Below the pieces are notes generated by a model. The model did not search any database, was not told the origin of the DNA, and saw only the letters and a program-made list of their open reading frames with translations. Source: Thermotogota bacterium (GTDB taxonomy: Bacteria; Thermotogota; Thermotogae; Thermotogales; DSM-5069). Taken from it: a stretch of 64,000 nucleotides of DNA. The translations under genes and the position numbers were made by a program. Location: NCBI GenBank assembly GCA_029551145.1, contig JAKPGA010000034.1, forward strand, positions 62,001 to 126,000. The letters run 5' to 3'. Shown one piece after another: positions 37,184 to 58,322 of the stretch; the first letter of the stretch is position 1; the number at the start of each line of letters is the position of its first letter.

Positions 37184-37198
37184 TGACATACACCTCCT

Positions 37199-38893: not shown

Positions 38894-38920
38894 GGAATCC
38901 CTCCAGATAGATTATAAAGA

Positions 38921-38947
38921 GGAAGGGGGAGACAAACACCCCCTTCC
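38921..38947 (-). promoter_or_regulatory. Hairpin between binding-protein and permease genes (attenuator)
   Basis: A perfect 9-base inverted repeat GGAAGGGGG / CCCCCTTCC with a 9-base loop just after the binding-protein stop. There is no T run following on the minus strand, so it is more likely an mRNA-stability or partial-termination element than a full stop. Confidence 0.75.
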
Positions 38948-38961
38948 ATCAAACCTAAGGA

Positions 38962-40188
38962 TCAATCAGCCAAGACATCTTTGATTGCCTGCTGCAGTTG
39001 TTTTGCTGCTTGCTCAGCTGATGTCTCTCCAAGTATTACCGATTGAGAGATTTCCCACATCTTCTGTCTGATCTCGACCCAGCCTTTCATACTTGGTGCC
39101 GGTACCACGAAATTCGCAACTTGTGCATAGTCTTTTCTCATTGGCAGGCTTAGGAAGGCATCTGATTTCAAGACGCTGTTGAGCACAGGAAGGTGTCCTG
39201 CTTTTGCCCACTCTGCAGCATTTCTTGCAAACCATTCTATGAATTTAACGGCTGCCTTGATTTTGTTCGGATCATCTTTTGGATGTTTTGGTAACACCCA
39301 TGTGTGGCTATCAGCCCAGGTGTAAGGCTTACTACCTTCAAGCGCTGGAACACTTGTAACGCCAAACTCCAAATTGAGTGTGGGATAGACTGCCATTGCC
39401 CACACACCATTCAGATGGAACACAGATTGATCGTTCTGGAACAATGACTCGGCTGTGTTGTAATCCATGGATTTTATTATGCCAGAGTCATAAAGTCCTT
39501 TGATGAACTCGTACGTCTTCTTGGCTTTTTCAAGATCGAGTTTGATTGAATTCGTCTTTGCATCGTAGAATTCTCCACCAAGTTGTGTGTAGTAAGCCAT
39601 GAATAATCTTTCACCGACCATTGGCCCGTTCTCAGCAGTTATACTGACTTCCAGGCCGAGTTTCTCCTTTGCTGTCTTTGCATATTTAATGAGCTCGTCC
39701 CAAGTCTTCGGAATGAGCGCTTCTCCATTTTGATCAACCAAACCAGCCTTCTTGAGTAATTTCTTGTTGTAATACATCACAAGAGGATGTGTATCAATCG
39801 GTATTGCGTAAAGCTTGTTGTTGTAGTGAGCCTTGGAAATAATCTCAGGTACGTAATCTGACAGGATATCCTTGGAAGCATACGCGTCAATAGGTGTTAG
39901 AGCTCCCCTTGAAGCAAAGTCTGGTATCATTGCCAAGTGCATGACCGATACATCAGGTGGATCTCCTGCAACAACCGCTGTTGTCAGCTTGTTGTACAGC
40001 TCTCCCCATTCAACTATCTGTTCTACCACTTCGATATCTGGGTTTTCAGCATTGAATTTCTTGATCAGATCTGTTACTATGAATCCTTCACCACCGCTGA
40101 AGAACGTCCAGACCGTTATCGTTGTTTTAGCGCTGACGATAGCGGATAGCAAAGCTGCAATGCAGATAACCAAAAGTGCTTTTCTCAT
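38962..40188 (-). CDS. Sugar ABC transporter substrate-binding protein (CUT1)
   Basis: A 408-residue extracytoplasmic binding protein (SBP_bac_1) with signal LLVICIAALLSAIVSA and no lipobox. It carries TITVWTFFSGGEGF, FNAENPDIEVVEQIVEW and the family ligand-site stretch HPLVMYYNKKLLKKAG. It delivers a sugar to the two permeases downstream. Linkage to GH2 and a LacI regulator indicates an oligosaccharide or glycoside. It is the first gene of the minus operon; its start has GGGAGGTAAGATC in front. Confidence 0.92.
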   Translation of the reverse strand: MRKALLVICIAALLSAIVSAKTTITVWTFFSGGEGFIVTDLIKKFNAENPDIEVVEQIVEWGELYNKLTTAVVAGDPPDVSVMHLAMIPDFASRGALTPIDAYASKDILSDYVPEIISKAHYNNKLYAIPIDTHPLVMYYNKKLLKKAGLVDQNGEALIPKTWDELIKYAKTAKEKLGLEVSITAENGPMVGERLFMAYYTQLGGEFYDAKTNSIKLDLEKAKKTYEFIKGLYDSGIIKSMDYNTAESLFQNDQSVFHLNGVWAMAVYPTLNLEFGVTSVPALEGSKPYTWADSHTWVLPKHPKDDPNKIKAAVKFIEWFARNAAEWAKAGHLPVLNSVLKSDAFLSLPMRKDYAQVANFVVPAPSMKGWVEIRQKMWEISQSVILGETSAEQAAKQLQQAIKDVLAD

Positions 40189-42806: not shown

Positions 42807-42835
42807 TTGACATGTAACAGTTGTCGTGCTATTAT
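42807..42835 (+). promoter_or_regulatory. Promoter of the trehalose-type operon
   Basis: A perfect -35 TTGACA (42807-42812), a 17-base spacer and TATTAT (42830-42835). It is the best sigma-70-type promoter in the window and lies about 60 bases before the start codon of the binding protein. Confidence 0.85.
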
Positions 42836-42864
42836 TTCTATGTAATTAATTCATGTTACGACAA
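42812..42864. promoter_or_regulatory. Candidate operator pair for the ROK regulator
   Basis: ATGTAACA stands inside the promoter spacer and CATGTTAC (GTAACATG on the other strand) lies at 42852-42859. The arms TTGTCGT (42820) and ACGACAA (42858) form an additional inverted repeat across the start site. ATGTAACATG also occurs at 48371 before the next operon. The ROK gene at 47020 is the natural candidate binder. Confidence 0.45.
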
Positions 42865-42901
42865 AATGCTGGCCTTTGTGCCACATGGGGAGGGAGTGTA
42901 T

Positions 42902-44074
42902 ATGTCAAGGTGGATCGTTCTTTCTCTTGTGATAGTTGCCACCCTTCTTGGCGCTACAACACTTACCGTCATTGGACCTTGGTCTGGACCTGAGATGGAC
43001 AAGTTCATGCCTGTTCTTCAAGAGTTTGAAAAACAAACCGGGATAAAAATCGACTACAAGATTTACCGTGCCGAGGATCTCGCGAATCTCTTGCCAGCAC
43101 AGTTCGCCGCAAAGAAAGCACCCGGTGACGTGATTTTTATGTGGGCGAGTTTTATCAGGGAATACGGTCAGAAGGGTCACATCCTTCCACTGACAGGGGT
43201 TATCAACGAGGCTAACTACTTGCCCGGTTCTCTCAACCAAGTAAAGGTGGGTAAGGAGCTGTATGGTACAGCTTACACTGGAAAGGTCAAACCAGGATTT
43301 TGGTACAGAAAATCATTCTTCGAAAAGAACAAACTCCAGCCTCCTACAACATGGGAGGAGTTCATAGCTTTGCTGGAGAAGATCAAGAAGATACCTGGTA
43401 TCAAGGCACCAATAGCGAGTGGTGACGGAGTTGGATGGCCACTGTCGGACGTTACTGAACATTTCTTGATAACCTTTGGTGGTCCACAACTACAGTTGGA
43501 CCTGATAGAAGGCAACATCAGATGGGATAGCAACATTGTTATGAATGCCATGACCAAACTTACGTCAATACTTGAAAAGGGATATTTCGGTGAACCGACA
43601 GAATGGACACTCGTTCTGAAACAATGGTGGAATGGAGATTACGGCCTGTATTTCATGGGAAGTTGGATAACGGGAATGGTTGACAATCCAGATGATTTGG
43701 GTGTCTTCGCACTTCCTGGAGCAAAAGGTGTTGTTTTCGGTGCGGATTACGCCTTCGTGCCAAAGTACACTCAGTACCCAGAGGAAGCGAAAAAACTTAT
43801 CGCATGGCTGTCTGGTCCTCAAGGTCAAGCAGTTCAGGTAAAACAGGGAGGCCATATTGCTACAGCAGTTGGGATAGATCTTTCGACCTATCCACCTGTG
43901 GATAGAGAGGTAGCAAAGATAATTCAAGGTGTTACCGCTTTGGATGATCTCGATGACTCTATTGGCGGAGAGTTTCAGCCAGCCTTCTGGGATCAACTGA
44001 AGTTGCTCTGGGTACAACCGAGTCGTGTGAATGATGTAATAAAGGTTCTGCAAGAAAAGGCGCCGAAAAGATAA
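42902..44074 (+). CDS. Sugar ABC transporter substrate-binding protein (trehalose/maltose type)
   Basis: A 390-residue binding protein with signal SRWIVLSLVIVATLLGATT. SBP_bac_1 features are LTVIGPWSGPEMDKFMPVL, DVIFMWASFIREYG, and GLYFMGSWITGMV. ATG 42902 follows GGGAGGGAGTGT; longer upstream reading is leader. The substrate is inferred from the operon (two permeases, TreT-like synthase, ROK repressor) to be trehalose or a related alpha-glucoside. Confidence 0.9.
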   Translation: MSRWIVLSLVIVATLLGATTLTVIGPWSGPEMDKFMPVLQEFEKQTGIKIDYKIYRAEDLANLLPAQFAAKKAPGDVIFMWASFIREYGQKGHILPLTGVINEANYLPGSLNQVKVGKELYGTAYTGKVKPGFWYRKSFFEKNKLQPPTTWEEFIALLEKIKKIPGIKAPIASGDGVGWPLSDVTEHFLITFGGPQLQLDLIEGNIRWDSNIVMNAMTKLTSILEKGYFGEPTEWTLVLKQWWNGDYGLYFMGSWITGMVDNPDDLGVFALPGAKGVVFGADYAFVPKYTQYPEEAKKLIAWLSGPQGQAVQVKQGGHIATAVGIDLSTYPPVDREVAKIIQGVTALDDLDDSIGGEFQPAFWDQLKLLWVQPSRVNDVIKVLQEKAPKR

Positions 44075-44078
44075 TCTC

Positions 44079-44957
44079 ATGAAGAACAACTCAAGGTACG
44101 TTTTGTTTTTCATTCTACCAGCGATTCTGATGCTCTTGATATTTGTAGTCTACCCGGTTGCGAGAACTGTCATACTCAGCTTTCTTGACTCAGATGGCCA
44201 GTTTGTCGGTTTTAAGAATTACAGCAAGGTAATCTCGAGCCGGGAGGTTTTTGATCCTGCGGGCTTTTCCAGGGGTTTTCCCCTGGGAGCCCTTGTGCAC
44301 AACTTACTGTGGATAGCAATCCACTTGCCGTTGACAATAATACTTGGTTTGTCCCTATCAGTTCTTTTGAAGAACGTGAAAGGCGGTTCTTTCATAAAGT
44401 CCATCATCTTTCTTGGAATGGTCATGCCGATGATTGTTGGTGGAGTGATGATAAATTTCATCTTTGACAGAAATCTTGGCATAGTCAACGGCGTTTTAAG
44501 TCTGTTCGGTGTGCAGGGAAAAACTTGGACAGCTCATCCAGATACCGCTTTGTTGTCATTGATCTTTGGTTCAGTCTGGCTTTGGACGGGTTTTTCAGTT
44601 GTACTTTACTCTGCAGGCTTGGAGACGATACCGAAAGATTATTACGAGGCAGCTCAATTGGATGGAGCTTCTTCTTGGAAAATCTTCACAAAGATCACTG
44701 TACCCCTCTTAAGACCCATTACGGTGGTTGTTACAACCATGACACTGCTATGGGAACTGAAGGTTTTTGATATTGTCTATGTTGCTACCATGGGTGGACC
44801 AGGTGGGGCTTCAAATGTATTGGCACTGCAAATGTACACCTATGCCTTCAGGGCATTCGATTTCAACAGATCTGCTGTCGTGGCTGTGATATTAACACTT
44901 TCAACTCTCGCTGTCAGTCTATCTCTTGTCAGATCTGTCAGAGATGAGCAACCATGA
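44079..44957 (+). CDS. Sugar ABC transporter permease (MalF-like, CUT1)
   Basis: A 292-residue permease with start RYVLFFILPAILMLLIFVVYP and EAA loop YYEAAQLDGASSWKIFTKITVPLL. It starts four bases after the binding-protein stop and overlaps the next permease by four bases. The cassette lacks an ATPase gene. Confidence 0.93.
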   Translation: MKNNSRYVLFFILPAILMLLIFVVYPVARTVILSFLDSDGQFVGFKNYSKVISSREVFDPAGFSRGFPLGALVHNLLWIAIHLPLTIILGLSLSVLLKNVKGGSFIKSIIFLGMVMPMIVGGVMINFIFDRNLGIVNGVLSLFGVQGKTWTAHPDTALLSLIFGSVWLWTGFSVVLYSAGLETIPKDYYEAAQLDGASSWKIFTKITVPLLRPITVVVTTMTLLWELKVFDIVYVATMGGPGGASNVLALQMYTYAFRAFDFNRSAVVAVILTLSTLAVSLSLVRSVRDEQP

Positions 44958-45775
44958 AAAAGAAAATCCTCTGGACGATCATAGGATGGTTGGTTGGATT
45001 AATCTGGATAGTTCCTTTTGTAGGAGTTCTCATGACTGCAACAAGGCCACTTGATGAACTCCTTGGTGGTTGTTGGCGAGTTGAGCCCTTTCATCCAACC
45101 TTAAACAATCTGGTAGGCGCATGGAATCACCCCACTGCATCTTTGAAACAAGGCATGATGAACTCGCTTATAGTGACAATTCCGGCTACATTTCTTCCTC
45201 TGATCATAGCGACAATGGCAGGTTATGGTTTCTCCAGATACAGATTTCGCACAAAGAAATTGCTTTTTGCTTTGGTTGTTATTACTCTTGCACTTCCACA
45301 GCAGACGATCGCCATTCCGATTTTCCAACTCATGAATTGGTTGAACCTTGTTGACACGTATTTTGGCTTGATACTCGTTCACACAGCCTGGGGTATCCCG
45401 TGGATTACCTTTTTCATGAGGAACTTTTTCACCACCATACCCAGAGCCATGGAAGAAACTGCAAGGATAGATGGTGCCAGCGATATCACGACCTTTTTCA
45501 GAATCGTTTTGCCCATGGCCTTACCTGCGATAGGTTCGGCCTTCGCCTTACAGTTTACATGGGTCTGGAGCGATTTTTTCCTTGCATTGATACTGATCTA
45601 TTCACCTGAAAAGCTCTTAGCTACACAGAGAATACCTCTGATGAGAGGTGTTTATCACGTTGACTGGGGATTACTCTCTTCAGCCGCGATTATCGTGATG
45701 ATAGTACCGATTTTGGTTTATCTGTTATTGCAGAGATACTACATAAAGGGTATGATCGGATGGTCTTTGAAGTGA
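44954..45775 (+). CDS. Sugar ABC transporter permease (MalG-like, CUT1)
   Basis: A 273-residue permease with EAA loop MEETARIDGASDITTFFRIVLP and C-terminal YYIKGMIGWSLK. It forms the translocation pore with the MalF-like partner. The start overlaps the previous stop (ATGA). The TreT-like gene follows after 13 bases. Confidence 0.93.
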   Translation: MKKKILWTIIGWLVGLIWIVPFVGVLMTATRPLDELLGGCWRVEPFHPTLNNLVGAWNHPTASLKQGMMNSLIVTIPATFLPLIIATMAGYGFSRYRFRTKKLLFALVVITLALPQQTIAIPIFQLMNWLNLVDTYFGLILVHTAWGIPWITFFMRNFFTTIPRAMEETARIDGASDITTFFRIVLPMALPAIGSAFALQFTWVWSDFFLALILIYSPEKLLATQRIPLMRGVYHVDWGLLSSAAIIVMIVPILVYLLLQRYYIKGMIGWSLK

Positions 45776-45788
45776 GAGGAGGTTTCAT

Positions 45789-47015
45789 GTGGAAGTCCAA
45801 TTAAAAGATAGATCGATCGACGAGTACAAAGCGATAATCAAAGATGATGTAGAGAAAATCAAGAAAATCGCCGAGCCACTCAGAAATAAGAAAATCGTTC
45901 ACATCAATGCAACGGCTTTCGGAGGAGGAGTTGCGGAGATTCTGCATAATCTTGTTCCTCTCATGAGATCAGTTGGTATTAATGCCAAGTGGTATGCGAT
46001 AGAAGCACCGAACGAGTTCTTCAATGTGACCAAGAAGTTTCACAATACATTGCAGGGTGCTCAGATGGAAATATCCGAGCAGGAATGGAAGTTCTATGAA
46101 CATGTCTGTGAGAAAAATGCTGGAGTGATTGATGAAGATGCAGATATTATTGTAGTCCATGACCCACAACCCGCAGCGATAAAACTTTTCGCCAAAGTGA
46201 AACCGACTGCCAGGTGGATTTGGAGGTGCCACATAGATCTTTCCACCCCAAATCAGAATGTTTGGGACAAATTCTCGAAATATCTTAAGGATTACGACAA
46301 AATGGTCTTTCACTTGGATGAGTATTTCCCAAAAGACATGAAAGAAAGGTGTGTTGCTTTTCCACCAAGTATCGATCCGCTGAGTGATAAGAATACCGAA
46401 ATCAACCATAGATTCATCAAAGAGATGCTGGAAAAACTTGGCATAGATTCAAATAGGCCTTTGATTACAGTGGTAGCCAGATTCGATCCATGGAAAGATC
46501 TTTTTTCTGCAATTGATGTGTACAGGACCGTTAAGAAAGAGATTAGATCTGTACAGCTTGCGATTGTCTCTGCGATGGCGTCGGATGACCCGGAAGGTTG
46601 GATATTTTTCGAAAAGGTTGCCAGATACGCTGGTACCGACAAAGATATAATGTTCTGCACTAACCTGAACGGTGTTGGCAGCATAGAAGTCAATGCGATT
46701 CAGAGGATGACTACTGTGGCACTTCACACGGCAATTCGAGAAGGTTTTGGGCTTGTGATAAGCGAAGCGTTGTACAAGAATGTGCCTGTTGTAGCAAGAC
46801 CAGTAGGTGGTGTGAAGATACAGATCAAGCACGGCGAATGTGGATACTTGGCAAGCGATGTTCCCGATCTTGCAAATCGCGTCGTAGAACTTATGAGGAA
46901 TGAAGAACTCAGAACCAAGATGGGTCAAAGGGGTAGACAGATTGTCATTGACAACTTTATAATTACTGTGAATCTGAAGAACTATCTGAAATTGTTCCTG
47001 GAACTGATGAGGTGA
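45789..47015 (+). CDS. treT: Trehalose synthase TreT-like glycosyltransferase (GT4)
   Basis: A 408-residue GT4 retaining glycosyltransferase of the TreT type, which reversibly joins NDP-glucose and glucose into trehalose; in archaeal and Thermotogota cases it is thought to break imported trehalose. Diagnostic parts are HINATAFGGGVAEILHNLVPL at the acceptor loop, DDPEGW in the second domain and the donor-site TAIREGFGLVISEALYKNVPVVARPVGG. GTG 45789 has GAGGAGGT ahead of it. The neighbours (trehalose-type permeases, ROK repressor) support the name, but a related glucoside is possible. Confidence 0.82.
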   Translation: MEVQLKDRSIDEYKAIIKDDVEKIKKIAEPLRNKKIVHINATAFGGGVAEILHNLVPLMRSVGINAKWYAIEAPNEFFNVTKKFHNTLQGAQMEISEQEWKFYEHVCEKNAGVIDEDADIIVVHDPQPAAIKLFAKVKPTARWIWRCHIDLSTPNQNVWDKFSKYLKDYDKMVFHLDEYFPKDMKERCVAFPPSIDPLSDKNTEINHRFIKEMLEKLGIDSNRPLITVVARFDPWKDLFSAIDVYRTVKKEIRSVQLAIVSAMASDDPEGWIFFEKVARYAGTDKDIMFCTNLNGVGSIEVNAIQRMTTVALHTAIREGFGLVISEALYKNVPVVARPVGGVKIQIKHGECGYLASDVPDLANRVVELMRNEELRTKMGQRGRQIVIDNFIITVNLKNYLKLFLELMR

Positions 47016-47019
47016 GAAA

Positions 47020-48144
47020 TTGCCAGCGCCAGCTCTGAGAAAAAGAAACAAAGTAGATGTTCTGAAAAATGTTTTCGAAAGCAAAATCATCTCTCGGGCT
47101 GAACTGTCAAAGCTCACCGGTCTATCTTTGAGTACGCTCAGTTATGTGGTGCGTGAGCTTGAACAAGAGGGGCTCATAACAATCCAACAGCATGTTCAAA
47201 GGCGAGGAAGACCAACACAACTTTTGCGGATCAATCCCAGTAGCTGGACCACGATCGGAATAAAGGTCGGTAGAGAGGAAGTAAGAGGCACGCTTTTTGA
47301 CGCATCTATGAATGCTATAAGATCAAGCCGTGTGAGGGTTTTTTCCCATCTGAGAGACAATGAAGGCTACTCGAATGCCATAATGAAGATTATTGAGGAT
47401 TTAAAAGATAGAAAGTTGCTCGGTGTTGGTGTTTGTTCATCGGGTATAGTGAATGAAACTACCATAATAGTCTCACACTTGATGAACGTTAGGAACTTGG
47501 ACTTGCAATCGCTCCTCCAGAGTAACTTTGGCCTGAAGAAATTCATTCTAATGAACGATGTGGACGCACTGTGTTATTCTCTGACCAAGACCAATAAGAA
47601 AGACTATCTTGTCGTTACTTATGGAACGGGTATCGGCGCGAGTTACTGGGGCGAGGGAAGAACAAAACACTTTGAAATCGGCCATGCAATTGTTTCGGAG
47701 TATGGTAATTGTTACTGTGGACAGACTGGATGCCTTGAATACCATGCTTCGGAATATGCTGTTTTGAGGGAATATTCACAACAACAGATAGATTTTGAGG
47801 ACTTCGCGAAAAATGAAGAGGAAAAGTACAGGGAACAAGTTGAACAGATAAGATTAAAAGCCGCGCAGGACTTTGATTCTGTCAGAATGTGTTACTCAAG
47901 ACCACTTCGAGTTCTTTCAACTGTCGTTGGGAATTTGTTAATGATTCTAAAACCATCTACTGTAGTCTTCCTCGGAGAAGGCATGGTCAATCGAGAAATG
48001 GTGGAGCTTATCAAAGCCAATATCTTGAAGACTTTTAACAGGGAGTTTGTCAATCGCACTGCTTTCTCCATAGAAAAGGCAGATTGGGAACACGGCGTTG
48101 CCATGGCAGTAGTACAAAAGTACCTGAGTGAATTGGTACGCTGA
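47020..48144 (+). CDS. ROK family transcriptional repressor
   Basis: A 374-residue NagC/XylR-type regulator: a winged helix-turn-helix at residues 18-60 (ISRAELSKLTGLSLSTLSYVVREL), then the ROK domain with LVVTYGTGIGASYW and the zinc motif CYCGQTGCLE, with the expected His in FEIGHAIV. The start is TTG 47020, four bases after treT. It is the probable TreR-like local repressor, sensing trehalose or glucose. GTAACATG-type motifs occur in the promoter of its own operon and of the next one. Confidence 0.9.
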   Translation: MPAPALRKRNKVDVLKNVFESKIISRAELSKLTGLSLSTLSYVVRELEQEGLITIQQHVQRRGRPTQLLRINPSSWTTIGIKVGREEVRGTLFDASMNAIRSSRVRVFSHLRDNEGYSNAIMKIIEDLKDRKLLGVGVCSSGIVNETTIIVSHLMNVRNLDLQSLLQSNFGLKKFILMNDVDALCYSLTKTNKKDYLVVTYGTGIGASYWGEGRTKHFEIGHAIVSEYGNCYCGQTGCLEYHASEYAVLREYSQQQIDFEDFAKNEEEKYREQVEQIRLKAAQDFDSVRMCYSRPLRVLSTVVGNLLMILKPSTVVFLGEGMVNREMVELIKANILKTFNREFVNRTAFSIEKADWEHGVAMAVVQKYLSELVR

Positions 48145-48458
48145 ATATTCAAAGGGCAGTTCCATGCGTTGCTGTTTTGAATCTGTCTTTGCTACTGACA
48201 GTTCTGTTTGATTTCTACTATGTTGGATACAACCACAATGCCTCAATAAAAACCATTTCTTGGTCGGCGTGGGGTTCAAAATCAGTCCTTGTCGGTCTAC
48301 CTTGAAGAGATTTGTGAGGGATCTTTGATTATCGCATGAAAGCCTTTCGTGTTAACACTGTTGACAGAATATGTAACATGTGGTAGAAGTAAGGTAGAAA
48401 ATTTTCTGTTTTGATCTTCCAAGGAAAATTTTTTTCACCTAAATAAGGGGGTGTTTGT
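48145..48458 (+). other. 314-base intergenic region before the GH38 operon
   Basis: The second half carries the palindrome GTGTTAACAC (48349-48358), TTGACA (48361) and ATGTAACATG (48371). The first half contains a short open frame, 48177-48305, with a hydrophobic start, treated under findings. The leader repeats AAAATTTTC/GAAAATTTT (about 48399-48430) could form a weak stem before the ribosome site. Confidence 0.45.
48349..48389 (+). promoter_or_regulatory. Promoter/operator region of the GH38-glycosyltransferase operon
   Basis: GTGTTAACAC (10-base palindrome) precedes TTGACA (48361-48366); 17 bases later is TAGAAG, a poor -10. ATGTAACATG in the spacer repeats the motif found in the trehalose-type promoter. 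Weak core plus two sites suggests control by a repressor or activator, RpiR (56200) or ROK (47020). Confidence 0.45.
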
Positions 48459-49721
48459 ATGAAGAAGTTGTTAGTTGGTCTTGTCCTGCTCTCATTTGTG
48501 GTTTTTGCCTTCGCTAAGGTTAATTTCGGGTCAACTCAGATGACTCCTGCTGCTGAAAGAGAGTTCATGATTAGACTGCTTGGTGACTTTTCAAAAAGTT
48601 CGGGTGTTGAAATTGAGTTTCTGAACTTTGAGTACACCGATCTACTCAGCAGGGTTGAAGCTGAACAAAAAGCAGGAAAAGTGGTTTTAAACTTGATTGC
48701 TGATCTTCAAAGTGGACTTTACACAATGGGTTCAAGCGGACTTCTTACAGATCTTTCCTCCGTGAATTTTCAGGGTAAGACCTTCGTCTCCACCTTTGAA
48801 AGGTACACTTATGCTGGAAAAGAAAAGGTCTTCTTCCCATGGCTACAGGCTACATATGCGATGGCTATCAACAAAAAGGCCTTTGACTACCTGCCAAAAG
48901 GTTTGACACAACAAGATGTGATGAATGCAACAGAGAAATGGACTTATGATTCTCTGCTTGAATGGGCAAAGAACATGCAAGAGAAAACAAAACAACCACA
49001 GCTTGGTTTTCCACTGGGTCCAAAGGGCTTGTGGCACAGATTTTTGCATGGATATATCTATCCGTCTTATACAGGCGCACAGGCGACTAAGTTTGATAGT
49101 GTAAAGGCAATCGATATGTGGAATTATCTTCGCGAACTGTTCAAATATGTTCATCCAGCCTGCACGACATGGGACAACATGGATCAGCCGCTCTTGAGAG
49201 GCGAGGTTATGATCGCGTGGGATCACACGGCACGAATAAAACAAGCAATTGTGGAGAGACCTAACGATTTCGTAGTAGTCCCTGTACCACGAGGACCGAT
49301 GGGAAGAGGATACATCATTGTTCTGGTTGGCTTGTCAATACCCAAGAACGCGAATATGGATGAACCACTGAAGGTCATCGATTTTCTGACAAGCCCAAAG
49401 GCGCAGAACGCTATCCTGGAGAACCTCGGCTTCTTCCCTGTAGTCCAAGAAGCGGCCGGTCAGATACCAGAAGGCGGTCTGAAGATACTCGCGCAAGGTG
49501 TTGTCAGTCAGTCTTCTGCACCAGACTCAATTGTTTGCTTTATACCTGGCCTTGGAGCAAAAGGTGGAGAGTTTAGCGAGACATATCGCATGGCATTTAC
49601 AAGAATTGTCTTCAACAAAGAAGATCCTGTAAAGGTCATAGGAGAACTCGGTGAGAAAATAAGACAGATTTTCAAAGAAGTGGGAGCACCACTGCCTGAA
49701 CCTGATTCAAGCCTCTTCTAA
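48459..49721 (+). CDS. Sugar ABC transporter substrate-binding protein (CUT1)
   Basis: A 420-residue binding protein with signal KKLLVGLVLLSFVVFAFA. Its SBP_bac_1 features include EFMIRLLGDFSKSSGVEIEF, AWDHTARIKQAI and the C-terminal half with DFLTSPKAQNAILENLGFFP. It has the usual aromatic-rich middle (WKYxSLLEW type: EKWTYDSLLEWAK). The ligand is unknown; the GH38 mannosidase downstream suggests a mannose-containing compound. AAGGGGGTG precedes the ATG. Confidence 0.9.
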   Translation: MKKLLVGLVLLSFVVFAFAKVNFGSTQMTPAAEREFMIRLLGDFSKSSGVEIEFLNFEYTDLLSRVEAEQKAGKVVLNLIADLQSGLYTMGSSGLLTDLSSVNFQGKTFVSTFERYTYAGKEKVFFPWLQATYAMAINKKAFDYLPKGLTQQDVMNATEKWTYDSLLEWAKNMQEKTKQPQLGFPLGPKGLWHRFLHGYIYPSYTGAQATKFDSVKAIDMWNYLRELFKYVHPACTTWDNMDQPLLRGEVMIAWDHTARIKQAIVERPNDFVVVPVPRGPMGRGYIIVLVGLSIPKNANMDEPLKVIDFLTSPKAQNAILENLGFFPVVQEAAGQIPEGGLKILAQGVVSQSSAPDSIVCFIPGLGAKGGEFSETYRMAFTRIVFNKEDPVKVIGELGEKIRQIFKEVGAPLPEPDSSLF

Positions 49722-49727
49722 ATCCAT

Positions 49728-49749
49728 GCAGGTGGCTTGCGCCACCTGC
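49728..49749 (+). promoter_or_regulatory. Hairpin between binding-protein and permease genes (attenuator)
   Basis: A perfect 9-base stem GCAGGTGGC / GCCACCTGC with a TTGC tetraloop, followed by only TTTC. It lies 6 bases after the binding-protein stop and 24 before the permease start. Confidence 0.78.
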
Positions 49750-49772
49750 TTTCACACCTGAGGAGTGGATTT

Positions 49773-50627
49773 ATGAAAAGAGAATCGATGGTACCATTGT
49801 TGTTGATACTCCCAGCGCTTGTATATCTTGTAGTTTTCATAGGTTATCCAATAGTAGGCACCTTTCAGCTTGCATTTAGTAGTCCAAAGGGTTGGCTTGA
49901 GAATTTCAAGTATGTTCTTTCTTCAAGAGATTTTCTGAGCGCATTTTTGAACACAATCTTGCTTGGTGTGGTAGTCATACCTGCTCAGTTTGTTCTTGCC
50001 ATATTACTCGCGCTGCTGGTAAACAAAAAATGGAAGGGCTACAAGACAATCTTGTATATAATTGCAACACCATTAGCGCTCAGCGACGTAACAGCCGCTT
50101 TGATCAGTTATTCAATCTTTGCTCCGAATGGTTACCTGAACAAAATACTACTCAGGTTGAACTGGATAGAAAGACCACTCTATTTCTTTGGCTATCTTTT
50201 CAGATCAAGAGAGTTTCTTGTTGTTATTTTGACCGAGATCTGGAGAGCAACTCCTCTTGTATTTGTGATCTTGCTTGCAGGTCTACAATCGATAAACAAC
50301 GAATACCTCGAAGCAGCAGATGTATTTGGATTTTCAGCGTGGGAGAAATTCACAAAGATCACTTTACCTCTACTCAAACCTTCTATTGTTTCAGCGTTGC
50401 TTGTCAGAACACTCTTCGCATTTCAGATTTTCGGTGTCGTTTGGCTTTTGGCTGGAAGAGACATCACAATTCTGGCAGGCGAAACTTATTACTGGTATGT
50501 CTTTATGAACAACAGAAATATCGCGAGTACTTATGCGTTGATAATAGCTATACTGACTTTCATAGTTGGGTGGTTCTACATCGGCACGATTCGTTCAAAA
50601 CACCTTGAAGAGGGTGTGAGAACATGA
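49773..50627 (+). CDS. Sugar ABC transporter permease (MalF-like, CUT1)
   Basis: A 284-residue permease: first helix PLLLILPALVYLVVFIGYPI, EAA loop YLEAADVFGFSAWEKFTKITLPLL. The EAA loop has VFG in place of the usual LDG, a small departure from most MalF proteins. ATG 49773 has GAGGAG ahead; an earlier TTG lies in the hairpin. It overlaps the next gene by four bases. Confidence 0.92.
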   Translation: MKRESMVPLLLILPALVYLVVFIGYPIVGTFQLAFSSPKGWLENFKYVLSSRDFLSAFLNTILLGVVVIPAQFVLAILLALLVNKKWKGYKTILYIIATPLALSDVTAALISYSIFAPNGYLNKILLRLNWIERPLYFFGYLFRSREFLVVILTEIWRATPLVFVILLAGLQSINNEYLEAADVFGFSAWEKFTKITLPLLKPSIVSALLVRTLFAFQIFGVVWLLAGRDITILAGETYYWYVFMNNRNIASTYALIIAILTFIVGWFYIGTIRSKHLEEGVRT

Positions 50628-51418
50628 AAAAGTTTTTCTATATACTCGCCTGTGTCGCCATCTGTCTGTGGTTTTTAGGTCCCCTGTTTTTTACCTTTCT
50701 CGCATCTATGACACCATCTTCAGATTTTTACAGCATGGACAAGATTTTCCCATCAAAGCTGACCTTTGAGCACATTTACAAATTGCTCGTGAACCTCGGT
50801 GGATGGAGAGCGATGCTGGTTAGTGTTCAAGTTGCTCTCATAGCCATAGCTATTTCCTTTGCCTTCGGTATTCCTGCAGGCTATGCGATCACCAGGTATA
50901 TCTTTCGCGGAAAAAACATGATAAAGCTTGTGATGCTCTTTACAAGATCTGTACCACTCGTCGTCATCGCTGTTTCACTGGTAACTATGTATCTGAGATT
51001 GAATTTAGCCGACACGATGTTTGGAGTTGCCCTTGCTCATGCTGCAATGGTACTACCTTTTGTTGTCTTAATAACTTCAAGCATCTTTTCTGGAGTTTTT
51101 GTGGAATACGAAGAAGCAGGCATGATCTTTGGATTATCGCGTTTCGGTGCTTTTCTGAGAATCACAATGCCACTTGCATTACCTGGACTCGCTGCGTCTG
51201 CGATTTTTGCCTTTATCATGTCTTGGAATGAAGTGTTTGCTGCTTCTGTACTTGCAATAACCAATCGAACATTACCCGCTCACATACTCAGCACCGCCAT
51301 GGCATCGCCCGACTATTTCAAGTTCGCTGCGGGAACCATAATGGCCGTGCCGGCCTTGATATTCATTTTCATAATAAGAAAGTACTTGATATCGATGTGG
51401 GGAATCTCTCTCAAGTAG
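50624..51418 (+). CDS. Sugar ABC transporter permease (MalG-like, CUT1)
   Basis: A 264-residue permease with EAA loop YEEAGMIFGLSRFGAFLRITMPLALPG and C-terminal YLISMWGISLK. Here too the loop has IFG rather than LDG, matching its partner, so the pair probably evolved together. Eight bases separate it from the ATPase gene. Confidence 0.92.
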   Translation: MKKFFYILACVAICLWFLGPLFFTFLASMTPSSDFYSMDKIFPSKLTFEHIYKLLVNLGGWRAMLVSVQVALIAIAISFAFGIPAGYAITRYIFRGKNMIKLVMLFTRSVPLVVIAVSLVTMYLRLNLADTMFGVALAHAAMVLPFVVLITSSIFSGVFVEYEEAGMIFGLSRFGAFLRITMPLALPGLAASAIFAFIMSWNEVFAASVLAITNRTLPAHILSTAMASPDYFKFAAGTIMAVPALIFIFIIRKYLISMWGISLK

Positions 51419-51426
51419 GTGATCTG

Positions 51427-52500
51427 ATGGCTAAAGTCATTCTTAATGAAGTGAGAAAACACTTTGGCAACGTTAAAGCTCTTGATGGAATCAATCTCAC
51501 AATTGAGGAAGGACTTTTTGTTGTCTTGCTTGGACCTTCAGGATGTGGAAAGACCACTTTGATGAGGTGTATTTCGGGCTTAGAAAAACTCACCGATGGG
51601 AAAATCCTCTTTGATGACGCTGATGTCAGCAATACTGCTCCAAAAGACAGAAATGTGGCAATGGTTTTTCAGAGCTACGCAGTTTGGCCTCACATGAAGG
51701 TGAGAGACAACATAGCTTACCCTTTAAAACTCAAAAAAGTTCCAAAGAAAGAGATAGAAGAAAGAGTTAAATGGGTAGCAGAGTTACTCCACATAAGCGA
51801 GCTCTTAGACAGATTTCCCTCGCAGCTTTCTGGCGGTCAGAGACAAAGAGTAGCCGTTGCAAGGGCAATTGTGCACAGACCGAAAGTCTTATTAATGGAT
51901 GAACCTTTATCGAATCTCGATGCGCTTTTGAGAGTGAGAATGAGAAGTGAACTTAGAAAATTGCATGATCAAGTAAAGGTTACAACAGTCTATGTCACCC
52001 ATGATCAAACAGAAGCCATGACTATGGGAGACAAGATAGCGGTCATGAATGCGGGTAGGATTATTCAATACGGTACCCCTGAAGAAATATACAGAAGACC
52101 TAAGACAATCTTTGTCGCGGGTTTTGTGGGATCGCCTCAGATGAACTTTCTTCCTATGAAGGTCACTTCGAGCGGTAATCAGTTCTTTGCAGAAAACTTC
52201 GGCCTGAGAATACCCCTAAGGACAGATCCCAGGAAAGACAGACTCACTGTTGGAATAAGACCAGAACACATATTCTTGGAGCAACCAGGCAACTCCGTAT
52301 CTATTGGAGCGACAGTATATTTCGCTGAAAAATTGATGTCTGAAACGGTGCTTCATCTCATGATCGATGGTGATACAACCATTGTCGTCAAGGTTCCATA
52401 CGATCTGTCTGTAGAAGAGAACGATAAAATGCAGGTGTACGTTGACCTCAATCGAATTCACTTTTTTGATCCAGCAACAGGGGAGCGGATTGAACTTTGA
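51427..52500 (+). CDS. Sugar ABC transporter ATPase (UgpC/MsmX/MalK-like)
   Basis: A 357-residue CUT1 ATPase: Walker A GPSGCGKTTL (36-45), Q-loop MVFQSYAVWPHM, signature LSGGQRQRVAVARAI, Walker B VLLMDEPLSNLDA, and a C-terminal TOBE-like regulatory domain (IRPEHIFLEQPG). It is the only sugar-type ATPase in the window, while three permease pairs lack their own, so it may serve several. ATG 51427 follows AGGTGATCTG. It overlaps GH38 by four bases. Confidence 0.94.
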   Translation: MAKVILNEVRKHFGNVKALDGINLTIEEGLFVVLLGPSGCGKTTLMRCISGLEKLTDGKILFDDADVSNTAPKDRNVAMVFQSYAVWPHMKVRDNIAYPLKLKKVPKKEIEERVKWVAELLHISELLDRFPSQLSGGQRQRVAVARAIVHRPKVLLMDEPLSNLDALLRVRMRSELRKLHDQVKVTTVYVTHDQTEAMTMGDKIAVMNAGRIIQYGTPEEIYRRPKTIFVAGFVGSPQMNFLPMKVTSSGNQFFAENFGLRIPLRTDPRKDRLTVGIRPEHIFLEQPGNSVSIGATVYFAEKLMSETVLHLMIDGDTTIVVKVPYDLSVEENDKMQVYVDLNRIHFFDPATGERIEL

Positions 52501-55034
52501 GGCATGTCATATGTCACACTCATTGGGATCGGGAGTGGTTCGCCCCATCATCTATCACAAATGAGTGGCTTAAGGAACTTTTTCAGAGACTGTTTGAGTT
52601 GGTCAGAAAAAACGAAAGCTACACCTATGTACTCGACGGGCAAACTCTGATTTTGGAAGACCTTTTGAGTGTCGCTCCCGAATATGAAAATCAGTTGAGA
52701 GATCTTGTGAGGTCACACAATTTGTTAATAGGACCACTGTATGCTCAGATAGATTTCAGAATGTCTCCAGAAGTTGCCATTGTGAAAAACCTTGAATTGG
52801 GCAAGAAAGATCTGGAAAGGTTTGGATCTTGTACAAAAGTGGCATGGATGGTTGATAACTTCGGGTTCATTTCTCAACTTCCTCAGCTGCTTAAAAAGTA
52901 CGGTATTGAAGGTGCTTTCATCTGGAGAGGGGTTAATTCTGATAAGCCATCTATTGAGTTTCTCTGGAAGTCGAGGGATGGCTCTCAGGTTAAATCTATC
53001 TTTCTGATAGGAGGCTACAGAAATCTTTATGGACTCTCTGCTACAAGAAATCTTGCCAAGGAAAGATTAAGCCATGAAGTTGAAAAACTGAGACCGTTTT
53101 CTCTCACAGGTCATATACCACTCCTCGATGGGTATGATCTTGATACAAATCCTGAGGATCCTGAGCAATTGCTTGGCAAAGAAATTCTTAGAGCGACTCC
53201 TGAGAGCTTTGTAGAAGAGGTGTTCGCAGACGCAGCCAAATTACCCGTTTTGAACGGAGAAATGATGAGCGGAAAGTATGCCTGTGTTTTCCCCGGTACG
53301 CTCTCAACAAGGGTCTATCTGAAAAGACAGTCATATGTTGTTGGAAAACTCATCAGATATGTGGAATTCCTGAGTTCTTTGAACGGCAGGCAAATCGACA
53401 CAATGCACAAAAACTATCTGAAGACGCTCATTCATGACAATATCTGTGGTGTCGGTGTAGACCAGATACACAGGCAGATGCAGAAAACTTACAGAAGAAT
53501 GTACTTGAAACTCAAAAGATCATTCGTTGAACAGATCAGCCAGATCGCGGCTGACCTTGAATCTGGAAAATACGTTCTGTCCTTCTCACCTTTCGATTAC
53601 AACCATTGGCATTGCGACGGTGAAAGATGCTACAAACTGCAAAGTGATGGAATGGGATTTTTCAAAGTGACTGAATTTGATACAGCAGTAGAAGACACTA
53701 CTCTGCGATTCGAGAATGATTATTACACGGCCGAATTCTGCGAAGATGGAGCTGTAAAAATCAACAACATATTGACTGGCATCTTGCATCTGGAGAAGGA
53801 GAATGGGGACAGCTATTCAACATACCCAACGAAAATAAGATTCTCATCACGGTTGCTCAAGATTGAAGTTGAAAGAGCTGGTCAAAAACATAAAATCGTA
53901 AGACTTCAGAGGATTGTGAAGTCAAAAGGCGTTTTGATAAAGACAACTGAGAGAGTTGTTTTCGATCAATCACCTTTAGTAAAATGGGAAATCTTCGTTG
54001 ATTTACAGGGTAGTGGGTATCTTCTCAGTTTCATGACAAAGACAGATGATGAAAACTCAAAGGTATTCGCGAAGATGCCCTTTGAAGTGGTTCAAAGAAA
54101 TAGGATGGACAAAGATTTGTTTGATTCGAATATTCCACCAGAGATTGATAGGGTCTTACTCGCTGCAAGAGAGACTGGATCTGTCAAGAAATTCCCTTTT
54201 CAGGGCTTTGTGGCGCTGTCGAGTGGGAAAAAAACCATAGCCATGATGTCAAAGGGCGTCTATCAGTATGAAGTTGACGAGTTTGGAGACATGAAGATCG
54301 ATCTTGTTCGAAGCATTGAATGGATTGCCAAAGGTAATATCCCAGGCCGAACAGGTGATGCGGGGCCATTGATGTACATATCCGATGCCAGATGTGAGGG
54401 CAAAATGCATTTTGAACTCGCGGTATGTGAGATAAGGTCAAGTCCAAGATCGAGCGAATTAATGCGATGGTTTAATTTGTTTGATGATTCTCCTTTAGTG
54501 ATTTCGTTGAAAAACACAAAGGGAACATCAAGATCTTTGAATTTCTATAGTGGTGAGCTCCCATGGGTCTGCTTGGAAGAAAACAGAATTGTTGTTTATA
54601 ATCCGTATTCTAAGACCGTGAATGGATTGAGACCAGGCAGAATATCGACAATCCCGCTGAATGTTCGGACACAATCCAACGATGACAAAATCAGTATCAA
54701 GATCATGAATTTTCCTGCCTTTCCATTTTTTGTTTCGACGAAGCAGCCTTCTCAAGAAGTACTTGATTCAATAGAAGGACAGATTGGCAGAATCCAGAAA
54801 CAGCTGGAAATTCTAAGAAATCGCATGAGAGAGATTAGAAAAGATTCTAAAAAATATCACCTGCTGAAACACAAGATTTTGAGTAACCAAAGAACGATGC
54901 TTGAACTGAGAGTTTCACTATCCCTGAATAAAGGTAAGGTACCAAGAGCGTTGTTGAGGAAACTCAATAGAATTAGGGCACAAAAAAGGATCTATGACTA
55001 TATCGTGGAACTGTTAAAGGAGGGAGAACAGTGA
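52497..55034 (+). CDS. Glycoside hydrolase family 38 alpha-mannosidase-like enzyme
   Basis: An 845-residue GH38 protein without signal peptide, so cytoplasmic. The zinc motif HTHWDREW occupies residues 7-14, the catalytic Asp is D120 in WMVDNFGF, and the second metal His is H313 in IHDNICG. Size and domain order resemble MngB, which splits 2-O-mannosylglycerate (6-phosphate), rather than lysosomal mannosidases. The last about 95 residues (755-845) are charged and predicted coiled coil (IEGQIGRIQKQLEILRNRM), an addition I do not know from the family. It starts at TTG 52497 overlapping the ATPase stop. It probably cleaves the compound taken up by this operon. Confidence 0.88.
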   Translation: MRHVICHTHWDREWFAPSSITNEWLKELFQRLFELVRKNESYTYVLDGQTLILEDLLSVAPEYENQLRDLVRSHNLLIGPLYAQIDFRMSPEVAIVKNLELGKKDLERFGSCTKVAWMVDNFGFISQLPQLLKKYGIEGAFIWRGVNSDKPSIEFLWKSRDGSQVKSIFLIGGYRNLYGLSATRNLAKERLSHEVEKLRPFSLTGHIPLLDGYDLDTNPEDPEQLLGKEILRATPESFVEEVFADAAKLPVLNGEMMSGKYACVFPGTLSTRVYLKRQSYVVGKLIRYVEFLSSLNGRQIDTMHKNYLKTLIHDNICGVGVDQIHRQMQKTYRRMYLKLKRSFVEQISQIAADLESGKYVLSFSPFDYNHWHCDGERCYKLQSDGMGFFKVTEFDTAVEDTTLRFENDYYTAEFCEDGAVKINNILTGILHLEKENGDSYSTYPTKIRFSSRLLKIEVERAGQKHKIVRLQRIVKSKGVLIKTTERVVFDQSPLVKWEIFVDLQGSGYLLSFMTKTDDENSKVFAKMPFEVVQRNRMDKDLFDSNIPPEIDRVLLAARETGSVKKFPFQGFVALSSGKKTIAMMSKGVYQYEVDEFGDMKIDLVRSIEWIAKGNIPGRTGDAGPLMYISDARCEGKMHFELAVCEIRSSPRSSELMRWFNLFDDSPLVISLKNTKGTSRSLNFYSGELPWVCLEENRIVVYNPYSKTVNGLRPGRISTIPLNVRTQSNDDKISIKIMNFPAFPFFVSTKQPSQEVLDSIEGQIGRIQKQLEILRNRMREIRKDSKKYHLLKHKILSNQRTMLELRVSLSLNKGKVPRALLRKLNRIRAQKRIYDYIVELLKEGEQ

Positions 55035-56212
55035 AATATCACAATGATATACCCAGCGACCTACCAACTTGCGATATCGTTGTTGGAATACCAAGTTTCA
55101 ACAACGCAACTACTATAAGTCATGTCGCCCGAACAGCTGCAAAGGGTATCGTCGATCTCGGACTAAAAGGTTTGATAGCTAACTCTGACGGTGGTTCGTC
55201 TGATCAGACTGTTAGTTCTTTTCTCCAGACCGATACCCTTGGTTTACCAAAGGTCACAATCAAATACAAAGGCATACCTGGAAAAGGCAGTGCTGTAAGG
55301 GCATTGTTTGAGATTGCCCACAAAGTGAAGGCTAAGGTTTTCATTATGCTTGATTCAGATTTGAGAAGTGTTGAACCCTGGTGGATTGAGAGACTGTCGG
55401 CGCCAATTCTTGACGGGGAAACGGATTACGTTGCGCCGTTTTATATTCGTCATAAGTATGATGGTACGATCACGAACAATATTTGCTACCCACTGACATC
55501 TGTGTTGTACGGACTGAAGATTCGTCAACCCATCGGTGGTGATTTTGGTGTCGGTAAGAGACTCATTGAGACATACCTGAACAAACGCGATGAAATCTGG
55601 CAAACAAATGTTGGCAGATTTGGTATCGATATATGGATGTCGACGATAGCCATAAATGAATCAGAGAAACCACCTATTCAGGCAGCGCTGGGAGCAAAAG
55701 TTCACGACGTCAAAGACCCTGGTAAACACCTTCAAGGAATGTTCATACAAGTTGTTCAAACGCTTTTTGAGATGATGATTGAATACCAAGGAAGATGGAA
55801 GAGCATCGACTCACTTGTTCCTGCCAGAGTTTATGGCGAGCAACCGATCCAAACTGTCGAAGAGATAGTCGTCGACTTGCAAGGTCTGAAAGAGAGAGCC
55901 AAAGTGACTCTGCAGGAGAAATCACATGGTGATTTGCCCCTACCATATCGGATTGTTCAGTCAGTACTATCCACAGGAACAGTTAATATGCAAGACTGGG
56001 TCGAGGTAGTTTATAATCTTGCATTACAATACAGGGAGAAAAGAAATGAAGAAACGATTCTGATGCTTCTGCCGTTTTATTTCGCACGTGTGGCAGGTTT
56101 CGTTGAAGAAACGATAGATCTGGATAGTTCCCGGGCGGAAGAGATTGTGGAACAACAACTCGAGCTGTTCACACAAAGGAAGAAGGATCTTTTAAAGAGG
56201 TGGTTTTTCTGA
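55031..56212 (+). CDS. GT-A glycosyltransferase resembling glucosyl-3-phosphoglycerate/mannosylglycerate synthases (GT81/GT2-like)
   Basis: A 393-residue GT-A enzyme. It has the N-terminal nucleotide-sugar strand CDIVVGIPSFNN, PGKGSAVRALFE at 83-94, the metal-binding DSD at 108-110 followed by LRSVEPWW, and QPIGGDFGVG at 165-174. The PGKG, DSDL and QPxxG spacing resembles GpgS-type GT81 enzymes that make glucosyl-3-phosphoglycerate. The remaining 180 residues are helical. No signal or membrane helix is seen. It overlaps GH38 by four bases and the RpiR gene by 13, so it is certainly in the operon. Donor and acceptor are unproven. Confidence 0.7.
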   Translation: MKYHNDIPSDLPTCDIVVGIPSFNNATTISHVARTAAKGIVDLGLKGLIANSDGGSSDQTVSSFLQTDTLGLPKVTIKYKGIPGKGSAVRALFEIAHKVKAKVFIMLDSDLRSVEPWWIERLSAPILDGETDYVAPFYIRHKYDGTITNNICYPLTSVLYGLKIRQPIGGDFGVGKRLIETYLNKRDEIWQTNVGRFGIDIWMSTIAINESEKPPIQAALGAKVHDVKDPGKHLQGMFIQVVQTLFEMMIEYQGRWKSIDSLVPARVYGEQPIQTVEEIVVDLQGLKERAKVTLQEKSHGDLPLPYRIVQSVLSTGTVNMQDWVEVVYNLALQYREKRNEETILMLLPFYFARVAGFVEETIDLDSSRAEEIVEQQLELFTQRKKDLLKRWFF

Positions 56213-57036
56213 TACTGGACCATCTACTTGGCATCTACGATAGGTTGAGTGATACAGAAAAAAAGGTCGCATCTTATATCATCGAGAGGCCAGATGATGT
56301 GATACATTACTCCATAACAGAGTTTGCAAGAATTATTGGTGTGAGCGAGACTACCATATACAGGTTGATCAGAAAAATGCGCTTTGATGGTTACCAGTCT
56401 TTCAAAATAGAACTCACCAAGCAAACCAGTGGAGCCAAGTCCTTTCCTACCATCACAAAAGATGCCTTTGATGAATACATAAGCCAGATGAAGTCTGTTA
56501 TTGAACGAATCACAACGACTCTGAAAAGAGAAGATGTGCAGAAGGTAGCAGAATGGGTCACTGAATCTGAGAAGACGATATTCTTTGGTGTGGGGCTTTC
56601 TGCAGTTGCAGCCGAATATGGCAGTCTGCTTTTCTCCCTTTTGGGATTGTCATCTTTCTATTACAATGATCCGCACGTTCAAGTAATCGTTGCGACAGGC
56701 TTATGTGAAAAAGACCTTGTCATATCCGTCAGCCACAGTGGAAACATAAGAGATACCGTGAAATCAACACAAGTGGCCAAAGATGTGGGAGCGAAAACTG
56801 TCGCGATCACCGCTGGCGTGAACTCCCCGCTGTCATGCACAGCAGATATAACCTTATACAGTCCGGTCGCCAGGTTCGAGAAGCACGAATTTCTCAGAGG
56901 GAACATTGGAGAACTCGCCGTGATAGAGATACTTTTCCAGATGATACTGAAAAAGATCTATGCACAAAAAGAAGATTACCTTAATGGACTTTCAGAGGTC
57001 CTCAAACCAAAAAGATATGAGAGTGGTAAAGAATGA
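56200..57036 (+). CDS. RpiR family transcriptional regulator (HTH plus SIS domain)
   Basis: A 278-residue RpiR-type regulator. The helix-turn-helix is in residues 20-60 (YSITEFARIIGVSETTIYRLIRKM) and the sugar-phosphate-binding SIS domain in 120-250 (ISVSHSGNIRDTVKSTQVAKD). Such proteins sense phosphorylated sugars. GTG 56200 is listed; GAGGTGG could instead serve a start nearer to 56209. Placed between two glycosyltransferase genes, it likely controls this operon, and its effector could be a sugar phosphate or phosphoglycerate derivative. Confidence 0.88.
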   Translation: MVFLILDHLLGIYDRLSDTEKKVASYIIERPDDVIHYSITEFARIIGVSETTIYRLIRKMRFDGYQSFKIELTKQTSGAKSFPTITKDAFDEYISQMKSVIERITTTLKREDVQKVAEWVTESEKTIFFGVGLSAVAAEYGSLLFSLLGLSSFYYNDPHVQVIVATGLCEKDLVISVSHSGNIRDTVKSTQVAKDVGAKTVAITAGVNSPLSCTADITLYSPVARFEKHEFLRGNIGELAVIEILFQMILKKIYAQKEDYLNGLSEVLKPKRYESGKE

Positions 57037-58322
57037 AGATTGCGTTAGTTCATTTCAGAGCGGGAGAAACAGACGGAGTATCGCTTGAAATGGAGAAATG
57101 GAAAACAGTACTTGAAAGAATGGGACATCAAGTGTTCTATCTTGCTGGAGAGTTGGGTAAAACCCATGGTATCGAGATACCTTCCATATGCATGAATAAT
57201 CCAACAAATCTCTGGATCCACGAAAATGCCTTTGAAAGGCTGTCGACAGACGAAAGATCTTTTATTGACATTTTCCAGGACTATGTTGAACAGATCGCCG
57301 AAGAACTGCAGTTGAGAATGCCTCCTGTAGACCTGCTCATAGTCAACAACATCCTGTCTCTTGGGTTCAACCTACCTGCTGCCGTCGCGATTACAGAATA
57401 TGCGAGGAAGAATAAAGTGAAGATCATTGGGCATCACCATGATTTTTACTGGGAAAGAGAGAGATACTCAAAGCCACAGAGCGATTTTGTGAGCAAGATT
57501 CTCGATGAATATTTTCCACCGGAGGGCAGTAATATACTGCACGTGACGATTAACAGTTTGGCACAAAAAGAACTTTTGAAGCGTAAAGGTCTTCCCTCGA
57601 AGATTATACCAAATGTGTTTGATTTCGACCAATCACCCTGGGTGATAGATGATTACAACAAGGATTTGAAGGGAGCCCTTGGGATAAGTGGAGATGATCT
57701 TGTAATCCTACACGCCACAAGAATTGTTGAAAGAAAGGCAATAGAGATTGCGATGGATTTTGTTGAGCAGCTCTGCTATATGAGTGAACAGAAGGTTCAT
57801 TTTCTCGTTGCGGGCTTTTTTGAGCAGGAATCGCTGGCGTACTACGATAGGCTCCTGAAAAAAGCCAGAGAAATGCCCTATGAAACTCATTTCGTTTTTG
57901 AAAAAGTGAGGTCCACAAGATTTGTAAACGGCAAGAAATACTATTCACTTTGGGATATGTACGCAATTGCAGATGCCATAACTTATACTTCAGTACTTGA
58001 AGGCTGGGGAAATCAGCTCATAGAAGCTGTTTTCTCGCGTAAATCTTTAGTTGTTTTCGAGTATCCTGTTTATAAGAGCGATATCGCACCGCTTGGTTTT
58101 AACTTCATCTCCCTTTCTGACAGGGTGCTTTACAATGAAAAGACACGATTCTATGAGATAGACCAAGGCATTCTAAAAAAGGCAGCAGAAGAACTGTTGA
58201 AACTTTTCTCAAATCCAACACTGTTGGAAAAGAATGTGCAGCACAACTTTAGAATAGGTAAGAAATATCTCTCTTTGGAGAGCTTACACGGATATTTGAA
58301 GGAAACTATCAATCGATGTTGA
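57033..58322 (+). CDS. Glycosyltransferase family 4 protein, candidate mannosyltransferase
   Basis: A 429-residue GT-B glycosyltransferase with N-terminal KIALVHFRAGETDGVSLEME, GHHHDFYWERERY in the cleft, IPNVFDFD, and the donor-site SVLEGWGNQLIEA (ExxxxxxxE type). The GHHHDFYWERE acceptor-side motif is shared, as far as I recall, with the GT4 enzymes that mannosylate glucosylglycerate-type acceptors (MggA/MggS); this is from memory, not a search. It is the last gene of the operon, overlapping rpiR by four bases, and ends against the convergent fliE. Confidence 0.72.
   Translation: MKIALVHFRAGETDGVSLEMEKWKTVLERMGHQVFYLAGELGKTHGIEIPSICMNNPTNLWIHENAFERLSTDERSFIDIFQDYVEQIAEELQLRMPPVDLLIVNNILSLGFNLPAAVAITEYARKNKVKIIGHHHDFYWERERYSKPQSDFVSKILDEYFPPEGSNILHVTINSLAQKELLKRKGLPSKIIPNVFDFDQSPWVIDDYNKDLKGALGISGDDLVILHATRIVERKAIEIAMDFVEQLCYMSEQKVHFLVAGFFEQESLAYYDRLLKKAREMPYETHFVFEKVRSTRFVNGKKYYSLWDMYAIADAITYTSVLEGWGNQLIEAVFSRKSLVVFEYPVYKSDIAPLGFNFISLSDRVLYNEKTRFYEIDQGILKKAAEELLKLFSNPTLLEKNVQHNFRIGKKYLSLESLHGYLKETINRC

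Follow-up and report, generated by a model that had tools for sequence, protein, structure and literature searches.

A predicted TreR operator in a trehalose operon of a Thermotogota genome and a neighbouring ugt-like operon most likely under a separate regulator

Two adjacent operons lie in the window analysed here, a stretch of 64,000 nucleotides from a Thermotogota bacterium, and they are most likely under separate regulators, because the copy of a shared word that stands before the second operon is without most of the remaining TreR site. We consider it highly probable that the first operon is a unit of the ROK-family repressor TreR, that the second has its own RpiR/UgtR-like switch, and that the copy before the second operon (site 3) belongs to an element of that promoter and is no TreR site. 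The copy that matters was identified by footprinting in relatives and not by the word that the promoters have in common. The operators, their positions and the gene orders are conserved, and no TreR-type site is found before the second operon; it is improbable that both operons answer to a single ROK repressor.

The window (features in Table 1) belongs to a genome (G000) of 2.1 Mb with a completeness of 94.6%. Its relatives, among them G001 of the same genus, were grouped into genera g1 to g4 of the window's own family (f1) and genus g5, inferred to be Thermotoga, of a second family (f2).

Table 1 Features of the two operons, with coordinates in the window
Feature	Position	Strand	Basis and remarks
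treE promoter	42807..42835	+	TTGACA, 17-bp spacer, TATTAT; 11/12 consensus bases in scan; aligned relatives
Site 1, ATGTAACA	42812..42819	+	overlaps -35; variable among relatives
Predicted TreR operator, ATTAATTCATGTTACGACAAAA	42845..42866	+	just downstream of -10; site 2 is its middle; matrix score 34.5
treE-like sugar-binding protein, ABC importer	42902..44074	+	SBP_bac_1; start picked by ribosome-binding site
treF-like permease	44079..44957	+	named from frame reading and position; order kept in relatives
treG-like permease	44954..45775	+	named from frame reading and position; order kept in relatives
treT-like trehalose synthase	45789..47015	+	TreT_GT1 domain; NCBIfam TreT 476.9 bits, cut-off 775
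treR, ROK-family repressor with winged HTH	47020..48144	+	PF00480 2.2e-30; HTH_24/MarR
Second-operon promoter	48361..48389	+	TTGACA, 17-bp spacer, TAGAAG, TGTGG before it; read from alignment
Site 3, ATGTAACATG	48371..48380	+	GTAAC conserved; not a TreR site
AGAAAATTTTCT palindrome	48396..48407	+	proposed RpiR-family operator; conservation
Second GAAAA/TTTTC-type palindrome	48424..48436	+	proposed RpiR-family operator; alignment
ugtEFGK-like ABC importer	48459..52500	+	binding protein by Pfam; two permeases and ATPase named from frames
GH38 enzyme	52497..55034	+	closest NCBIfam mannosylglycerate hydrolase, 222.9 of 1138 bits (below cut-off)
GT2 glycosyltransferase	55031..56212	+	weakly like glucosyl-3-phosphoglycerate synthase, 39.2 of 262 bits (below cut-off)
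RpiR-family regulator (HTH_6 + SIS), likely UgtR	56200..57036	+	domain search; conserved in operon
GT4 glycosyltransferase	57033..58322	+	full-length match to mannosylglucosylglycerate synthase, 414.6 of 640 bits (below cut-off)

The trehalose operon and its predicted operator

As originally predicted, the ROK gene (47020-48144) is the last of the first operon, and its product carries both the ROK domain and an N-terminal winged helix-turn-helix (HTH). The gene follows treT in the window and at 16 of 16 orthologue loci (three of them having treT truncated by the end of the contig), the order treE-F-G-T-R is kept at all seven f1 loci with a complete region (G001, G002, G003, G006, G007, G008 and G009), and the six f2 loci with a complete treT consist of treT-treR with no treEFG beside them. 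The HTH residues STLSY are the same in all 11 TreR proteins aligned. Excerpts of PMC3750489 describe TreR of T. maritima as a ROK regulator that responds to trehalose and co-regulates treEFG and treT, with treTR induced on trehalose and the regulon conserved in the studied Thermotogales except Petrotoga mobilis; gene context and this published regulon make the ROK gene very probably treR. Its ROK and winged-HTH architecture is that of enterobacterial Mlc and NagC, which supply the best NCBIfam models and are among the PDB relatives, but the scores fall far under the curated cut-offs (74.8 bits where 530 are required, 72.8 where 650 are) and the gene stands beside trehalose genes. The mechanical open reading frame of the treE-like gene starts at 42821. 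Upstream of the tre operon, on the minus strand at 34814-40188, the window holds a further operon that encodes an ABC transporter and a GH2-family enzyme, and a relative of its binding-protein gene is also found upstream of tre in G001.

The predicted operator was scored with a matrix trained on 10 f1 sites, or on 16 with f2 included, the sites being chosen by the analysis's own pattern; the window's operator, itself one of the training sites, reaches 34.5, compared with 13.7 for the next best place in the window. Written as TTAATTCATGTTACGA at 42846-42861, it contains CATGTTAC (site 2), which begins 16 bases past the -10 (42830-42835). The operator is present in 10 of the 11 treE promoters examined. 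In f1 it appears as TTAATTCATGTTACGA, exact or with one mismatch, just after the -10 of all 10 treE promoters, and a search of the genomes for ATTAATTCATGTTACGA, allowing one mismatch, gives a single place in every one of the 10 treE-bearing f1 genomes and no place in G005. The treE promoter of G013 (f2), where the start codon is approximate, is without the operator, and there treE is 66% and a nearby ROK gene 34% identical. Upstream of treT, TTAATTCA(A/T/G)GTTACGA is found at six of six f2 loci (the G011 promoter falls outside this set, its treT being cut at a contig end), and the predicted operator is common to f1 treE promoters and f2 treT promoters.

Across the 16 operator sites TTA.TT and GTTAC are kept, and the CATG part is variable. 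Four of the six f2 sites contain TTAATTC-N7-GAATAAA, a fifth differing only within N7, and this form reads as an imperfect inverted repeat, a type of operator familiar for ROK proteins. Because the footprint is conserved and a TreR regulon has been published, we interpret site 2 as the core of the TreR operator, and the expectation that the ROK protein controls its own operon very probably holds, through the conserved predicted operator at 42846-42861.

What follows on DNA binding, effectors, the start of transcription and the direction of control we infer from these patterns. Without inducer, TreR would occupy TTAATTCATGTTACGACAAAA, immediately past the -10 (about +5 to +25, with transcription assumed to begin some 7 bases beyond the -10), and would thereby block RNA polymerase and keep treEFG-treT-treR off, TreR itself included. 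By analogy with published TreR, trehalose would release the repressor.

Site 1, whose first base is also the last of the -35 (42807-42812), scores -3.0 in its best register, with 222 of 127952 window positions scoring higher, and takes the forms TGTAACA, TGTTACA, AGTTACG, GATGACA and GGTAAAA in relatives. At the treE loci of G008 and G009 (L107 and L105) an exact CATGTTAC stands at the -35, 41 bp upstream of the operator copy. Judged from these forms, site 1 may be a weak accessory TreR site in some species, and such short sites are possible in the genus of G008 and G009. TreR-like matches with two or three mismatches in g3 genomes were considered as a second target and rejected; the one inspected, L055 in G005, falls within an open frame that we take to be gyrB.

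The ugt-like operon and its promoter

The second operon encodes a regulator of its own. A gene for an RpiR-family protein sits within the ugtEFGK-type operon in the window and in relatives: it lies inside the second-operon gene set at 13 of 14 loci from other genomes, the fourteenth being cut at a contig end, and it is also present at the two loci adjacent to treR. Among the treR loci read, the second operon adjoins treR in G000, G001 and G002 only. Gene content varies somewhat, the second-operon locus of G006 giving no GH38 match and the GT4 gene preceding GT2 at the g5 loci. According to excerpts of PMC3750489, RpiR is one of the six regulator families listed there, and UgtR (TM1228) and UgtEFGK are named, the transporter with its regulator being present in 9 of 11 genomes and the pathway left uncharacterised; by context, the RpiR-family protein is likely UgtR.

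A scan for consensus promoters misses the second promoter, whose -10 matches four of six bases; the scan as a whole finds 9 promoter-like places, compared with 10.7 (sd 3.6) in shuffles, and is no proof alone. The promoter was read from an alignment of 18 of the 20 fetched loci of the second-operon binding protein, with L098 and L099, from other families, omitted after viewing. Nine more full or near-full orthologues of this protein, listed without loci, lie outside the promoter set, as do G010 (where the binding protein has no match) and G004 (where it is cut). Downstream of the second-operon -10, both GAAAA/TTTTC palindromes are conserved: AGAAA(A/G)TTTTC(T/C) occurs in 15 of the 18 aligned promoters, with only degenerate forms in G006, G020 and G044. 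The first, written as GTAGAAARTTTTCT, has one exact place and one single-mismatch place in the G000 genome. These AGAAAATTTTCT-type palindromes are natural candidate operators of the UgtR-like RpiR-family protein (56200-57036), which probably binds them at 48396-48436.

A longer palindrome, GTTACATAAGTAAGTTACTTATGTAAC, is found at G001:C8:40435-40462 and G002:C1:2154103-2154134, with a looser copy at G000:C22:80607-80634; in G001 and G002 it is close to a binding-protein-like match and is perhaps the operator of another regulator.

Site 3 and the words shared by the two promoters

The original prediction named three copies of a motif, ATGTAACA at 42812, CATGTTAC at 42852 and ATGTAACATG at 48371, and proposed from them that one ROK repressor controls both operons. 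All three words are exact at these positions and, as claimed, lie within or near two promoters, in or just after -35/-10 regions, site 3 falling inside the 17-bp spacer between TTGACA (48361-48366) and TAGAAG (48384-48389). What does not stand is their sharing as a signal, since, among 1000 pairs of 100-bp promoters after shuffling, 247 have a word of at least 8 bases in common, and GTAACATG is found in the 2.1-Mb genome 32 times (18 + 14), below the 60 (30 + 30) of its reversed control. Shuffled full intergenic regions share at least 8 bases in 992 of 1000 cases, and the longest word common to the two full intergenic regions is a different one, CAAAACAGAA, of 10 nt. Pairwise sharing of a word between the two promoters is at chance level. 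ATGTAACATG has three exact places in the genome, two of them inside open frames, presumably those of thymidine kinase and a transporter.

Footprinting across relatives, proposed with the prediction as its check, found site 2 conserved as an operator and site 3 not of TreR type. In operator orientation, site 3 (CTACCACATGTTACAT) matches TTAATTCATGTTACGA at eight of eight core bases; outside the core CATGTTAC it agrees at two of six left-arm bases (CTACCA for TTAATT) and at neither base of the following GA, and the operator pattern TTAATT...GTTAC(G/A)A is absent at 48371. With the f1 matrix, real sites score 32.7 to 36.4 and site 3 in its best register reaches -6.1, with 625 of 127952 window positions higher; the 16-site matrix gives -11.2, with 794 positions higher. 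When second-operon promoters from 16 of the 20 fetched loci were scored with the f1 matrix, four exceeded the 95th percentile of random 150-mers (2.0), namely G025 (8.4), G027 (3.4), G023 (3.0) and G002 (2.2). All four are far from real-site scores, and the window's own second promoter peaks at -1.4. The weak matches of G023 and G027 fall on the upstream ATGTTA box and that of G002 on this box and the -35, while that of G025 spans the GTAAT place, aligned to the left arm of the operator and not to its core.

Binding of TreR to GTAACATG before each operon, with co-repression of the two, would agree with the identity of the core CATGTTAC at sites 2 and 3, with the adjacency of the operons in G000, G001 and G002, and with the retention of GTAAC at site 3 in all eight g1/g3 promoters (GTAACATG is exact in five). 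Natural gene loss nevertheless rejects a dependence of site 3 on TreR: in G005, a 99% complete genome, GTAAC is present while treE, treT and treR find matches of no more than 27%, 25% and 26% identity, amounting to no orthologues. GTAAC is absent from G006, which carries orthologues of all three. The ATGTTAA...GTAAC element therefore appears to belong to the second-operon promoter and not to TreR. The element is also retained in G003, G007, G008 and G009, where the operons lie apart, and the two sites show no joint change in f2, the TreR core being CAAG in four of six sites and CAGG in one, and the seven g5 second promoters having GTAAT (five) or GCAAT (two) at the GTAAC place. With the poor left arm and background score of site 3, and with an RpiR gene and palindromes belonging to the second operon itself, co-repression is very unlikely, and the proposal that the ROK protein also controls the GH38 operon is not borne out.

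Two further readings concern site 3 only and are compatible with separate TreR and RpiR/UgtR-like control. One is that the shared words reflect chance and ordinary promoter sequence with no extra regulator, which we regard as evenly balanced: the chance rate of word sharing and the low genome count of GTAACATG speak for it, but the spacer GTAAC is kept across two genera despite diverged surroundings. The other, possible though rather doubtful, is that GTAACATG and ATGTTAA together form the site of a further regulator of the ugt-like operon. At 48349-48377 of the window a TGTTAA-type box and the GTAAC box make an imperfect inverted repeat around the second-operon -35; such boxes flank the -35 in g1/g3, and the repeat is conserved in two genera and loosely in f2 (g5). 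Its arms are perfect over 7 bases in three of eight promoters (G001, G008 and G009), with a matched change in both arms of G001 (TATGTTA/TAACATA), but they are imperfect in the remaining five, the distance between the boxes differs by one base among g5 promoters, G006 is without the element, the TGTGG part is accounted for by an extended -10, and a loose genome search shows no enrichment of TGTTA-N18-22-GTAAC (7 in G000, 26 in controls). A Rex-like palindrome, TGTTAA-N5/6-TTGACA, was dropped, its spacing being 5 in f1 and 6 in g5. It is unlikely that the ATGTTAA...GTAACATG element is the site of a further regulator, or a weak accessory TreR site, tying uptake or synthesis of a mannosylglucosylglycerate-like solute to trehalose status.

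Relation to known systems and significance

Separate control by TreR and by an RpiR/UgtR-like protein would make the pair a TreR-controlled operon beside an independently regulated one, an ordinary arrangement in which both kinds are known and the instance is new. As in the Thermotogales TreR regulon, in the excerpted account of PMC3750489, a ROK repressor gene follows treT and its product very probably controls treEFG and treT. Here a single operator was found for treEFG, treT and treR, which stand in one run of genes, whereas in T. maritima the excerpts give treEFG and treTR as separate operons, treEFG also having a GluR site (PMC3750489). The second operon resembles, by context, the UgtR regulon described there, with a UgtEFGK transporter and its own regulator; unlike that description, as far as the excerpts go, it also encodes GH38, GT2 and a mannosylglucosylglycerate synthase-like GT4 (PMC3750489).

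As a lead, these gene assignments make the second operon resemble a system for a glycosylglycerate compatible solute of the mannosylglucosylglycerate type more than a plain sugar operon. According to excerpts of PMC3694870, Petrotoga and Rhodopirellula have mannosylglucosylglycerate as a compatible solute. A PDB search with GT4 and the second-operon binding protein gave nothing at E up to 1e-5. In the library searched, UgtR, TM1228 or TM1231 with Thermotoga led only to PMC3750489, and none of the matches listed linked mannosylglucosylglycerate to Thermotoga or UgtR.

With this analysis, one precise predicted TreR operator is located in another genome of the Thermotogales, and a link between two operons that is probably false falls away. 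If true, the reading of the second operon would supply the UgtR pathway, which is published but uncharacterised, with a substrate, namely a glycosylglycerate-type compatible solute and not a food sugar.
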